A DNA stretch of 17,593 bases from Candidatus Altarchaeum sp. (GTDB taxonomy: Archaea > Altiarchaeota > Altiarchaeia > Altiarchaeales > Altiarchaeaceae), in contig JAGTWP010000028.1 of assembly GCA_018260755.1 (NCBI GenBank), positions 1 to 17,593 of the forward strand, given 5' to 3'. Made by a program: the position numbers and the translations under genes. Under the pieces are notes generated by a model. That model was not told where the DNA came from. It worked only from the letters and a program-made list of their open reading frames with translations, and ran no database searches. Below are positions 3,684-9,520 of the stretch, piece by piece (within the stretch, counting starts at the first letter, position 1; every line of letters starts with the position of its first letter).

Positions 3684-4973
3684 ATGAAAGCAAAACTACA
3701 ACTTGCACTGGATTTTGTTGAATTAGAGAGAGCGATAAATATTGCAAAAGAAGCAGAAAATTTTGTTGATATAATTGAGGTTGGCACGCCGCTCATTAAA
3801 AGTGAGGGTATGAATGCGGTCAGGAAATTCAGGAAGGACTTTCCGAATAAAGAAATTTGTGCGGATATGAAAACAATGGATGTCGGAAGAATGGAGGTTG
3901 AAATGGCTGCAAAAGCAGGGGCGGATATCGTTGCAATTTTAGGGGCAAGTGATTATTCAATGCTCTTTGAATGTCTTAAAGCAGGCAGAAATTATGGCTG
4001 CAAAATTATGGTTGATATGCTGAATGTTGAAAATTTAACGGAAAAGGCAAATAAAATAAAGGAATTTGCGCCTGAGGTTTATATTTGTGTTCATCTCGGA
4101 ATAGACCAGCAAATGAAAGGAATGAAGATTTCCTGCGAGGTTGAAAAATTGGCAAAAGCAGGCATAAATAACATTGCCGTTGCGGGCGGAATAAATTCCG
4201 AAAATGTAGGTGAATTGGCAAAATTTTGCGCTCTTATAATTGTTGGTGCGGCAATAACAAAAAGCAGGAATGTTGCCGAAAGCGCGAGAAAACTAAAGGA
4301 AGCAATAGAAAAAGAAATTTCAATAAAATCGGAATTCAAGAAAGCAAGTTCCGAAGATGAAATTTTAGAAATTTTTAAAAAGGTCTCCACTGCTAATATA
4401 AGCGATGCTATGCATAGGGCACAGGTGATGAATTATATTAAGCCGATAAAACCCGGAATGAAGGTGTGTGGGAAGGCATTTACGGTCCGAACATTTTCAG
4501 GCGACTGGGCAAAAGCAGTTGAAAGTATAGATAAAGCAAAAGCAGGGAATGTTATTGTTATTGATGCCAACGGAAAATCGCCCGCTGTCTGGGGTGAATT
4601 GGCAACTCTGAGCTGCATACAGAAAGGAATTAAAGGAGTTGTTATTGACGGGGCGATAAGAGATACGGGAGAAATTTCAAAATTAAATTTTCCGGCGTTC
4701 GTTAAATTGATAACTTCAAATGCAGGCGAACCAAAGGGCTTTGGAGAATTAGGTGTTAAAATTTCCTGTGGAGGAGTTGATGTCCGGCCGGGTGATTATA
4801 TTATCGGAGATGATGACGGGGTTATCGTTGTTCCGGAAGAAGATGCAATTGAAGTAGCAAACAGGGCATTGGATGTTTATGAGAAAGAAGACCGTATAAA
4901 GGAAGAAATTGCAAATAAAAGCACATTAGCGAGTGTTGCCGAAATAGAGAAATGGGAATCTTGTAAGAGGTAA
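3684..4973 (+). CDS. 3-hexulose-6-phosphate synthase fused to an RraA-like domain
   Basis: A 429-residue two-domain protein. Residues 1-210 are a TIM-barrel 3-hexulose-6-phosphate synthase of the OMP decarboxylase superfamily: catalytic DxKxxD (D61-K63-D66, ADMKTMD), VDMLNV, VHLGID and the phosphate-binding VAGGI and IIVGAAIT. Archaea lacking the oxidative pentose phosphate route run this enzyme in reverse to release ribulose 5-phosphate and formaldehyde. Residues about 223-429 are an RraA/HMG-aldolase-like domain with WGELATL and the VIDGAIRD motif (R326-D327), plus GDYIIGDDDGVIVVP. This fusion is known in archaea and is often annotated as a bifunctional synthase/ribonuclease regulator; the role of the second half is unsettled. 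Pairing with PurE suggests ribose-phosphate supply for purines. No SD at the start. Confidence 0.88.
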   Translation: MKAKLQLALDFVELERAINIAKEAENFVDIIEVGTPLIKSEGMNAVRKFRKDFPNKEICADMKTMDVGRMEVEMAAKAGADIVAILGASDYSMLFECLKAGRNYGCKIMVDMLNVENLTEKANKIKEFAPEVYICVHLGIDQQMKGMKISCEVEKLAKAGINNIAVAGGINSENVGELAKFCALIIVGAAITKSRNVAESARKLKEAIEKEISIKSEFKKASSEDEILEIFKKVSTANISDAMHRAQVMNYIKPIKPGMKVCGKAFTVRTFSGDWAKAVESIDKAKAGNVIVIDANGKSPAVWGELATLSCIQKGIKGVVIDGAIRDTGEISKLNFPAFVKLITSNAGEPKGFGELGVKISCGGVDVRPGDYIIGDDDGVIVVPEEDAIEVANRALDVYEKEDRIKEEIANKSTLASVAEIEKWESCKR

Positions 4974-7085: not shown

Positions 7086-7364
7086 ATGGCAACATACATA
7101 ATGTTGGGAAGGTATAGCACAGAAGGAATTAAGGAAATATCTAAGAAAAGAACAAAGGCAGTTGTTGGTGCAATTAAAAAGAACAAGGGAAAGGTTAGTG
7201 CAATGTATGCAATGCTCGGAAATTATGATTTGTGCTTTGTTGTGGATTTTCCGACAAATAATGAAGCAATGAAGGCATCTGTAAATATTGCAAAAGCAAC
7301 GGGAATTGGATTTAGAACACTTCCTTCAATATCTGTGGATGAATTTGACAAAGTGGTAGGATAA
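7086..7364 (+). CDS. GYD-domain protein
   Basis: A 92-residue ferredoxin-like-fold protein similar to the GYD family (PF08734). It starts MATYIMLGRYSTEGI, contains the signature LGNYDLCFVVDFP (residues 44-56, a GNYD variant of GEYD) and ends in a helix followed by GFRTLPSISVDEF. Family members are small cytoplasmic proteins without an established reaction. The ATG follows an A/T-rich segment (ATTTAAAAAAC, about 29 bp upstream) that could serve as a TATA element for a near-leaderless mRNA. It is bordered upstream by mobile-element remnants and downstream by the unassigned cassette. Confidence 0.8.
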   Translation: MATYIMLGRYSTEGIKEISKKRTKAVVGAIKKNKGKVSAMYAMLGNYDLCFVVDFPTNNEAMKASVNIAKATGIGFRTLPSISVDEFDKVVG

Positions 7365-7396: not shown

Positions 7397-7427
7397 AAAA
7401 ACGAACAAGGATAATAAAAACGAACAA
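7397..7427 (+). promoter_or_regulatory. 12-bp direct repeat at the start of the two-gene cassette
   Basis: AAAAACGAACAA occurs at 7397-7408 and again at 7416-7427, 19 bp apart, the second copy running into the ATG of the next gene. Two identical 12-mers on one DNA face just upstream of a start could be an operator for autoregulation. This is inferred from spacing only. Confidence 0.4.
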
Positions 7428-7987
7428 TGGAAATAATAAAACTCTTTAATAAGTTGCTAGGCAAAGCACCCCATAACAAAGAGATAGTTGATGTTTTGGG
7501 ATTAGATAAATATGATTTATTGTTAGATATTCTTTGGGTTGCTAAAAAAATAGAGACCACTATAAGGTTACATATGACTGTATTTTTACTACAAGAAGAA
7601 TCTCGTGAAATAAAAGGAATTTTGGATTATACATTTTACAATACATTAATGGGACCTTATTCCCCGAAATTGGCTGATGATGTTGAAGACTTGGCGAATG
7701 GGGGGTGGATTAGAGGAGATGACAAGGTTGCAAGGGGTAAAGGATTTGGACATAGTTATATGTTAAGTGATTTTGGAATAAATGATTTTAAGTTCCATAA
7801 GACAGCAAAAGAAAAACTAAAAGATAGAGGAGTTGAAGATAAAATTAAAGAAATTTTTAAAAATTATAACATTTTAAAAGGACATCCATACGATCTGATA
7901 AAAAAAATAAAGCAAAAAGAATATAATCAAAAAGAATATGAGGAAGTTGTAAGACCTGCGGAAGAACTTCATTTATTTAATTGGTAG
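7427..7987 (+). CDS. YwgA/Panacea-like winged-helix protein
   Basis: A 186-residue soluble protein. Residues about 31-96 carry the pattern LLDILWVAKKIE...LHMTVFLLQEES...YTFYNTLMGPYSPKLADDVEDLANGGWI. This resembles the YwgA/DUF4065 (Panacea) group, whose hallmark is a leucine-rich first helix and a GPYS motif followed by an acidic helix. Panacea domains serve as antitoxins that neutralise varied toxins; other relatives are uncharacterised. The C-terminal third is Lys/Glu-rich. It precedes a 412-residue membrane-anchored protein by 3 bp, so the two are surely co-expressed. A direct repeat overlaps its start. Assignment to the superfamily rests on motif resemblance only. Confidence 0.6.
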   Translation: MEIIKLFNKLLGKAPHNKEIVDVLGLDKYDLLLDILWVAKKIETTIRLHMTVFLLQEESREIKGILDYTFYNTLMGPYSPKLADDVEDLANGGWIRGDDKVARGKGFGHSYMLSDFGINDFKFHKTAKEKLKDRGVEDKIKEIFKNYNILKGHPYDLIKKIKQKEYNQKEYEEVVRPAEELHLFNW

Positions 7988-7990
7988 AAA

Positions 7991-9229
7991 ATGGCATTTT
8001 ATTATTGCAACCTTTTACCCGTAATTAGTGACAGCAAAATTTCTATTCCTCGTAAAGACGAACTTTTTTACTATGGCTGTCCGAATGATTGTGGCGAATA
8101 TGATGAATATAAAGTAACACTGACTGAAAAAGGGAAAGAAGAGTATAAAAATAACCTTGTGAAGAATGGGTTGAGCGAACGCCCCGAAATAATTGACAAA
8201 ATAATCTCTTCTACATATAGTTTAAAAATATATAAAGATAAAATAATAGAGATAAGAGCGGATTTAGTAGATATAAAATCGGAAGAAGAAAAGTTCGTTC
8301 ATGATATATTTATGAGTATCTATACTGCCATAAAATCTATAATTCATAATCATTTGTTTCCCAATTTGGAAAAAGGGGTATATATAACATATAGGAGCTT
8401 GTTTAGCTGGGATGATGTTCCTAAAAACAATACAGAACTTATAAAATTTTTAAAGGATGGCCTAAATGTAATGTGGGTAGAAAATGCGACGATTAATAAA
8501 AGCAAGGATAACAAAACAATAAACATTACTGATAAAAATGACTGCTCTAATAAAATCACCATCAACCTTAACAAAACAGAAAAGAAGGCAATTTTAGAAA
8601 TTGCTGGTGGTGAGAGATACGAATATGCTTTAAAAGAAGAAAATGGCAGGATGGATATTGCTCCTATACAAAACATAAGAAAAGAGATATATAAAAAATA
8701 TATAAAAATAAAAGAAAGAACTTTTGAACTACACCTCCTCAAAAACACAAAAGAAAGACAGGTTGTATCGGGTTTGATGACAGGAGATCTAAGATTATAT
8801 CTAGAAGTGTATTTTTGGTTATCAAAAAAGATAGCAAACTCCAAAAATCTTATAGGAACATTTGCGTATTTAGAATCCATAATAGATGGGTTTGAAAAGA
8901 ACATAAAAAAAGATCACAAGACCGATGTTGTGAAAACATGGATTTCAAAATTACAGGATATTCAAAATGGTATAAAATTTGCTTATCAGCTATCTGCACT
9001 TTTGTTTGTTTGCCTTGTTGCTATTGCCGATCATATGGCCAGTATTATAGAACCTGTCTCCTACATTACTGACACGAATCTTTTTTACATATGTATATTT
9101 TTTATCTTCGGGGCTTTCATTTTTATATATATAAAGGTTATATTTTCTCCGTTATTTAATAGCATTGTAGGGGAAGAAATGAAAGCCATATTTAATGTTA
9201 AAAATGTAGAAATAAAGCACGACCTTTGA
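7991..9229 (+). CDS. Uncharacterised protein with C-terminal transmembrane hairpin
   Basis: A 412-residue protein I do not recognise. The N-terminus (about 20-60) has C30-x3-C34 and YKVTLTEKGKEEYK, which looks like the wing of a winged-helix domain. The middle (about 100-325) is charged, alpha/beta and largely soluble, with a likely coiled region at 225-255. Two hydrophobic segments (about 330-352 and 363-386) make a membrane hairpin, followed by a short charged tail. It is translated 3 bp after the YwgA/Panacea-like gene and shares its wing-like sequence. One reading is a membrane effector with its controller, as in a toxin-antitoxin or defence pair; another is a membrane sensor. There is no direct evidence for either. 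Confidence 0.75.
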   Translation: MAFYYCNLLPVISDSKISIPRKDELFYYGCPNDCGEYDEYKVTLTEKGKEEYKNNLVKNGLSERPEIIDKIISSTYSLKIYKDKIIEIRADLVDIKSEEEKFVHDIFMSIYTAIKSIIHNHLFPNLEKGVYITYRSLFSWDDVPKNNTELIKFLKDGLNVMWVENATINKSKDNKTINITDKNDCSNKITINLNKTEKKAILEIAGGERYEYALKEENGRMDIAPIQNIRKEIYKKYIKIKERTFELHLLKNTKERQVVSGLMTGDLRLYLEVYFWLSKKIANSKNLIGTFAYLESIIDGFEKNIKKDHKTDVVKTWISKLQDIQNGIKFAYQLSALLFVCLVAIADHMASIIEPVSYITDTNLFYICIFFIFGAFIFIYIKVIFSPLFNSIVGEEMKAIFNVKNVEIKHDL

Positions 9230-9366
9230 TGTTACAAAGATACAATAATGCATGTTAAAAATCTGTTTGTCTCCTTTATTTTCACATTTAACGATTAAAT
9301 TTTTCATGAGGTCAAATTGTCTTTTCAAGTTCATTTTGTGTTTTGAAAAATTTATCCCTCAATTAT

Positions 9367-9476
9367 TAATTAGTGTCTGTCTTTTAAGTAAAAAAATTTA
9401 AAAAATTTTTCAATTCTTCCTCATAAATTTTATCGATTTCAACAAAAAATATGACTTTACGGACAGACACTAATTA
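9367..9476. mobile_element. MITE-like inverted-repeat element, second type
   Basis: A 110-bp element with perfect 15-bp inverted repeats, TAATTAGTGTCTGTC (9367-9381) and GACAGACACTAATTA (9462-9476). Similarity continues inward (TTTAAGT against CGTAAAGT). The interior is AT-rich and non-coding. It is the only content of note in the 291-bp gap between the cassette and the DUF1858 gene. No convincing target duplication is visible. Confidence 0.7.
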
Positions 9477-9520
9477 TTACTATTATTTAAGGTACAATAC
9501 AAAAATACAAATTTAATAAA

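Follow-up and report, generated by a model that had tools for sequence, protein, structure and literature searches.

Introduction

Rickettsia palindromic elements (RPEs) are small repeats that lie in-frame within unrelated housekeeping genes, where each of them encodes a conserved peptide (PMC10969869), and the QMITE elements of Coxiella burnetii are MITEs that overlap or extend genes (PMC5896051). Here, we describe an element from Candidatus Altarchaeum sp. for which RPEs appear to be the closest known kind, the likeness lying in the mode of insertion. As in RPEs, coding insertions with a conserved peptide are found in-frame in unrelated protein genes. However, RPEs are bacterial and about 150 bp long, whereas the present element is archaeal and ~260 bp long, has 8-bp target duplications and MITE/IS66-type ends, ranges over distant archaeal groups, and encodes a complete predicted domain of ~88 aa with measurable purifying selection. 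It also resembles the QMITEs as a MITE that overlaps or extends genes, but QMITEs mostly change the 3' ends of genes or intergenic regions, while internal in-frame insertion is the rule here. No archaeal description of the element was found in the openly licensed literature searched.

The element was identified in a 17,593-nt stretch of contig JAGTWP010000028.1 (hereafter the window), within the second gene of an adjacent pair, ORF1 and ORF2. Taking the evidence together, ORF2 is very probably a host gene with one old copy of a coding but non-autonomous transposable element inside it. The element creates 8-bp duplications and is likely mobilised in trans by an IS66-type transposase.

An in-frame insertion within ORF2

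The initial annotation had marked two genes 3 bp apart at 7427-9229, and we confirmed both, encoded on one strand and separated by a 3-bp gap (Table 1). It had also taken ORF2 for one large novel protein, a view that we revise, as ~22% of ORF2 is an in-frame transposable-element insertion. Residues ~135-226 correspond to the element copy, and the ORF2 homologue of the sister species has no such segment; this homologue is only ~30% identical, so the insertion boundary can be placed only to within about 5 residues. This segment is assigned as an element copy because it matches the element profile (E 4.5e-36) and is missing from the sister protein. Its left terminal inverted repeat, taken alone, does not match above chance. 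Its right end is eroded and, the copy being old, the right boundary is uncertain; because the ends are eroded, the target duplication is unreadable.

Table 1. Features of the ORF1-ORF2 pair and of the element copy within it (window positions).
Feature	Positions	Strand	Evidence
ORF1, 186-aa SocA/Panacea-like protein with GPYSPKL motif	7427..7987	+	PF13274 match of sister homologue; PADLOC PDC-M19A matches
ORF2, 412 aa, host protein with in-frame mobile element inside	7991..9229	+	
ORF2 N-terminal host segment, residues 1-134	7991..8392	+	alignment to element-free sister homologue L010:4265-5374
In-frame mobile element copy, coding, MITE-like	8395..8669	+	profile match E 4.5e-36; missing from sister ORF2; right boundary +/- about 10 bp
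Eroded left terminal inverted repeat, GAGCTTGTTTAGCT against consensus GTATTTGTTTAGCT, 3 mismatches	8395..8408	+	position in element alignment
ORF2 C-terminal host segment, predicted helical membrane hairpin, helices 312-353 and 362-392	8669..9226	+	sister comparison and AlphaFold

A multicopy element in unrelated host genes

With ORF2 as the query, its own genome gave 16 matches and relatives gave 10-22; almost all of these were to residues ~135-225 and within large open frames. The element is ~245-275 bp long, encodes an alpha/beta domain but no transposase, and is present in 16-17 copies in its own genome and in 10-22 in relatives (Ca. Altarchaeum, WOR_SM1). The host proteins, some assigned by Pfam, include DNA ligase, archaeal Lon (LonB), CTP synthase, RadC, CODH, PRPP synthase, Cas3, a methyltransferase and others, with five copies in the ATP-dependent DNA ligase and two in Lon; further unrelated host proteins were found in ANME/Methanoperedens. 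Nested element copies occur.

The element ends in 14-bp terminal inverted repeats (GTATTTGTTTAGCT ... AGCTAAACATATAC), with 13 of 14 positions matching in the best copies, and the end sequence has 44 matches in its own genome compared to 1 for a reversed control pattern. The 8-bp sequences flanking the copies match one another at a mean of 4.28 of 8 positions, compared to 2.79 (sd 0.24) in shuffled flanks, and 0 of 5000 shuffles gave so high a value; independent copies from other archaea gave a very similar result (4.25 compared to 2.78, 0 of 3000 shuffles as high). Duplications are a perfect 8 bp at L018, L099, L105, L131 and L189. The same Altarchaeum genomes also contain non-coding MITEs of 139-325 bp (L171-L187) that share the element's ends and are flanked by perfect 8-bp target duplications.

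Empty sites were found in relatives. In HURL_140 the pyrG site reads CATATTAAACAAATCAATG (core ATTAAACAAATC), while in the element's own genome it reads CATATTAAACAA-[element]-AAACAAATCAATG, with AAACAA on both sides. At the corresponding place in the pyrG gene of CG2_30_32_3053 (L069, G002:C153) there is a low-complexity NKDDDAK repeat. The DNA ligase has 564-579 aa and zero copies in three sisters, compared to 1112 aa and five copies in the element's own genome. At that locus (L014, G000:C67:244-3579) the copies lie in two clusters and the size of the protein is doubled; the ligase insertions are not simple, as additional non-element sequence is present between the copies. The attributes of a MITE were all found: the element is short, multicopy and without transposase, with terminal inverted repeats, target duplication and empty sites in relatives.

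Reading frame, selection and predicted fold

The coding frame (YLFSWDDVP...KLNIY) is open end to end in 92 of 92 full-length copies, a count that is partly a selection effect since copies were gathered by translation, while the other two sense frames contain 7.6 and 11.6 stops on average. In 78 of the 92 copies at least 20 extra codons are present on both sides. As the element length and the 8-bp duplication add up to a multiple of 3, an insertion in the right phase and orientation keeps the host gene open.

Selection was estimated by a simple counting method. Between Lon orthologues, dN/dS was 0.25-0.37 for the element and 0.11-0.15 for the host; for the ligase it was 0.12-0.17 with five elements compared to 0.11-0.14 without; and for the PyrG host it was 0.118. 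The median pN/pS over all copies was 0.46. By these measures the element domain is under purifying selection at the amino-acid level. Judging from the open frames and dN/dS, the host proteins are apparently not destroyed by the inserts, and the domain would be retained in the mature protein and tolerated by the host enzymes.

AlphaFold predicted a confident fold for the isolated element segment (pLDDT 94.9, pTM 0.86); in the prediction of ORF2 the element part reached pLDDT 93-98, with the rest far less certain. The sequence matched no solved structure, and no convincing fold was obtained with Foldseek or VIA-align. Comparison of the domain to frataxin gave Z 4.0-4.8 and rmsd 3.9-4.6, with a best Foldseek E of 0.025, and yielded no clear relative.

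Distribution and candidate mobiliser

The element has a patchy distribution, occurring in 8 of 29 genomes of its own phylum and in 12 of 394 archaeal genomes. Among the carriers are Ca. Altarchaeum (A3, HURL_140, CG2_30_32_3053) and Altiarchaeales WOR_SM1_SCG, as well as ANME-1/Methanophagales, ANME-2, Argoarchaeum, many Methanoperedens and a Methanosarcina (Methanosarcinales). Searches of phage records and of IMG/VR viral contigs yielded no copy.

A complete 1464-bp IS66 element was found in Methanoperedens BLZ2 (L228), with the terminal inverted repeat GTATTTGTATAGCT, one mismatch from the end of the coding element, a perfect 8-bp duplication (GCCTTATT) and a transposase matching PF03050 (E 2.6e-27). 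The coding element therefore has near-identical inverted ends and the 8-bp target duplication in common with the IS66 family, but it differs in carrying no transposase, and its resemblance to the family is confined to the ends. An IS66-type transposase acting in trans is most likely the mobiliser and our best guess, which we infer from an element that sits in another species. Altarchaeum draft assemblies, which break at repeats, yielded no intact autonomous element with these ends; only PF03050 relics were found (A3, CG2_30_32_3053), and these were rejected as mobiliser because their ends do not match. An IS630 element of A3 lying between two copies of the terminal inverted repeat (L141, 1501-2881) was rejected as the autonomous partner, having its own ends and being nested in a MITE. 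Several matches to the terminal inverted repeat in ANME-2 (L229-L233) were also set aside, having no partner end.

In WOR_SM1 (G026; L050, L059, L190-L193), at least 6 identical insertion-sequence copies with different flanks carry the element in-frame in the transposase gene. By inspection this transposase is IS1634/IS4-like, with no Pfam match. Since the copies are identical and their flanks differ, the transposase probably stayed active despite the insert.

Alternative explanations

The repeated segment is conserved as protein, folds confidently in prediction, and is found in multi-domain and very large proteins, all of which would fit an ordinary shuffled domain spread by gene duplication and recombination with no transposition. 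This explanation is strongly disfavoured by the terminal inverted repeats, the 8-bp duplications found in each of two independent sets, the clean empty sites, the nested copies, and the ends held in common with non-coding MITEs, and we give it hardly any weight. It is also very unlikely that the insert is lost before the protein becomes functional, whether as an intron, by translational bypass or as an intein-like segment. Such removal would account for the interruption of essential enzymes, and the inverted ends could pair in RNA; yet purifying selection at the amino-acid level inside a host gene, and likewise a confident predicted globular fold, would be expected only if the segment is translated. 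Inteins have conserved end residues, whereas the aligned segment, which starts YLFSW and ends NIY, is by inspection without them. Similarly improbable is that insert-bearing genes are decaying pseudogenes in organisms that rely on intact copies elsewhere. The RadC gene of CG2_30_32_3053 does have stop codons at the insert, and A3 has one insert-free RadC paralogue, but the window's own genome yielded one CTP synthase and one DNA ligase, both of them open, dN/dS values are as low as those of intact orthologues, and two Lon inserts predate the divergence of the genus's four genomes.

A different question is whether the pair is no more than a toxin-antitoxin or abortive-infection module of Panacea type, with an incidental repeat in ORF2. 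Several membrane-disrupting toxins are known to be neutralised by Panacea antitoxins (PMC8832971). ORF1 had been placed in the YwgA/DUF4065/Panacea group for its GPYSPKL motif and helices, and its SocA/Panacea-like character was borne out by matches of its homologues: ORF1 itself matched nothing in Pfam, while PF13274 SocA_Panacea scored 25.3 bits against the sister homologue, just below the cut-off of 25.7 (E 3e-5), and PADLOC PDC-M19A matched both ORF1 (E 3.6e-6) and several distant homologues (best 7e-21). These PDC-M19A matches are weak to moderate and cover the profile in part only, and the partner gene matches nothing. The C-terminal membrane hairpin previously proposed for ORF2 is likewise supported by AlphaFold with moderate confidence. 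In HURL_140 (Ca. Altarchaeum sp.), a locus between rpL10 and gatB, different from that in the window, carries an ORF1 homologue (37-40% identity) next to an ORF2 homologue (~30%), so the pairing is conserved.

The toxin-antitoxin or abortive-infection layout suggested in the initial annotation thus stands in part. The similarity of ORF1 to Panacea, the retention of the pair, though relocated, in a sister species and the existence of Panacea systems with membrane toxins make a toxin-antitoxin-like module plausible, and a partner ending in a membrane hairpin is in keeping with them. Against it, the adjacent pair was found in only 2 of 394 archaeal genomes, weak ORF2 matches in further archaea (E 1e-4 to 1e-2) probably being chance, and ORF2 has no toxin domain by Pfam, NCBIfam, PHROGs or PADLOC, none of which returned a family for ORF2 or for the element. 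Without its insert ORF2 is still large (about 320-350 aa) and unlike any known toxin. The module reading also leaves the repeat in ORF2 unexplained, though it is compatible with the mobile-element explanation. We consider it possible, at somewhat less than even chances, that the module reading accounts for the pair, and we hold just as tentatively that ORF1 and ORF2 may be a Panacea-type antitoxin and a membrane effector, a matter separate from that of the element.

Proposed mechanism and significance

Under the mobile-element explanation, which we prefer, a transposase acting in trans, most likely of IS66 type, would move the element, which would insert with an 8-bp target duplication and, when in the right phase and orientation, add the ~88-aa domain while leaving the host frame open. 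The domain would fold alone in surface loops or linkers, so that host enzymes stay active, and selection would keep it foldable, during its stay in a host gene as well as during transposition. The sequences themselves document that the element bears marks of mobility, has empty sites, resides in-frame, is constrained at the amino-acid level and ranges widely among archaea. We lean, by a modest degree, toward regarding the element as a protein-domain transposon, in which a self-folding cargo makes insertion harmless, permits life in essential genes, allows spread among distant archaea and supplies inserted domains.

The element shows a route by which folded domains can enter essential archaeal enzymes, namely transposition, backed by empty sites and target duplications, and the origin of inserted domains thereby becomes directly testable. 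It also accounts for many proteins of odd, enlarged size and for many repeated 'unknown' segments in the genomes of Altiarchaeota and ANME. In addition, it offers a natural insertion domain that is apparently highly tolerated and lends itself to study in laboratory enzymes.

Surroundings of the pair

The left neighbour of the pair is a GYD-domain gene (7086-7364), and downstream lie a DUF1858-like gene and then scpB. Inverted repeats had been reported on both sides of the pair. On the left we found mainly an AT-rich 52-nt direct repeat (6733 / 6997, 83%) and no clear inverted-repeat element, while the repeat 3' of the pair was recovered, with arms of 26 nt at 85% identity (9364-9389 / 9454-9479). 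Together these arms delimit a 116-bp inverted-repeat element at 9364-9479 that resembles an IS630-type MITE, and its ends (ATTAGTGTCTGTC) are similar to those of the IS630 element at L141 (TAGTGTCTTGACAAC). Elsewhere in the window, a PIN-domain-like ORF follows an AbrB-like ORF on the minus strand (343-998) and looks by inspection like an ordinary VapBC-type pair, and a 429-aa ORF at 3684-4973 reads, also by inspection, as a hexulose-phosphate synthase / RraA-like fusion.
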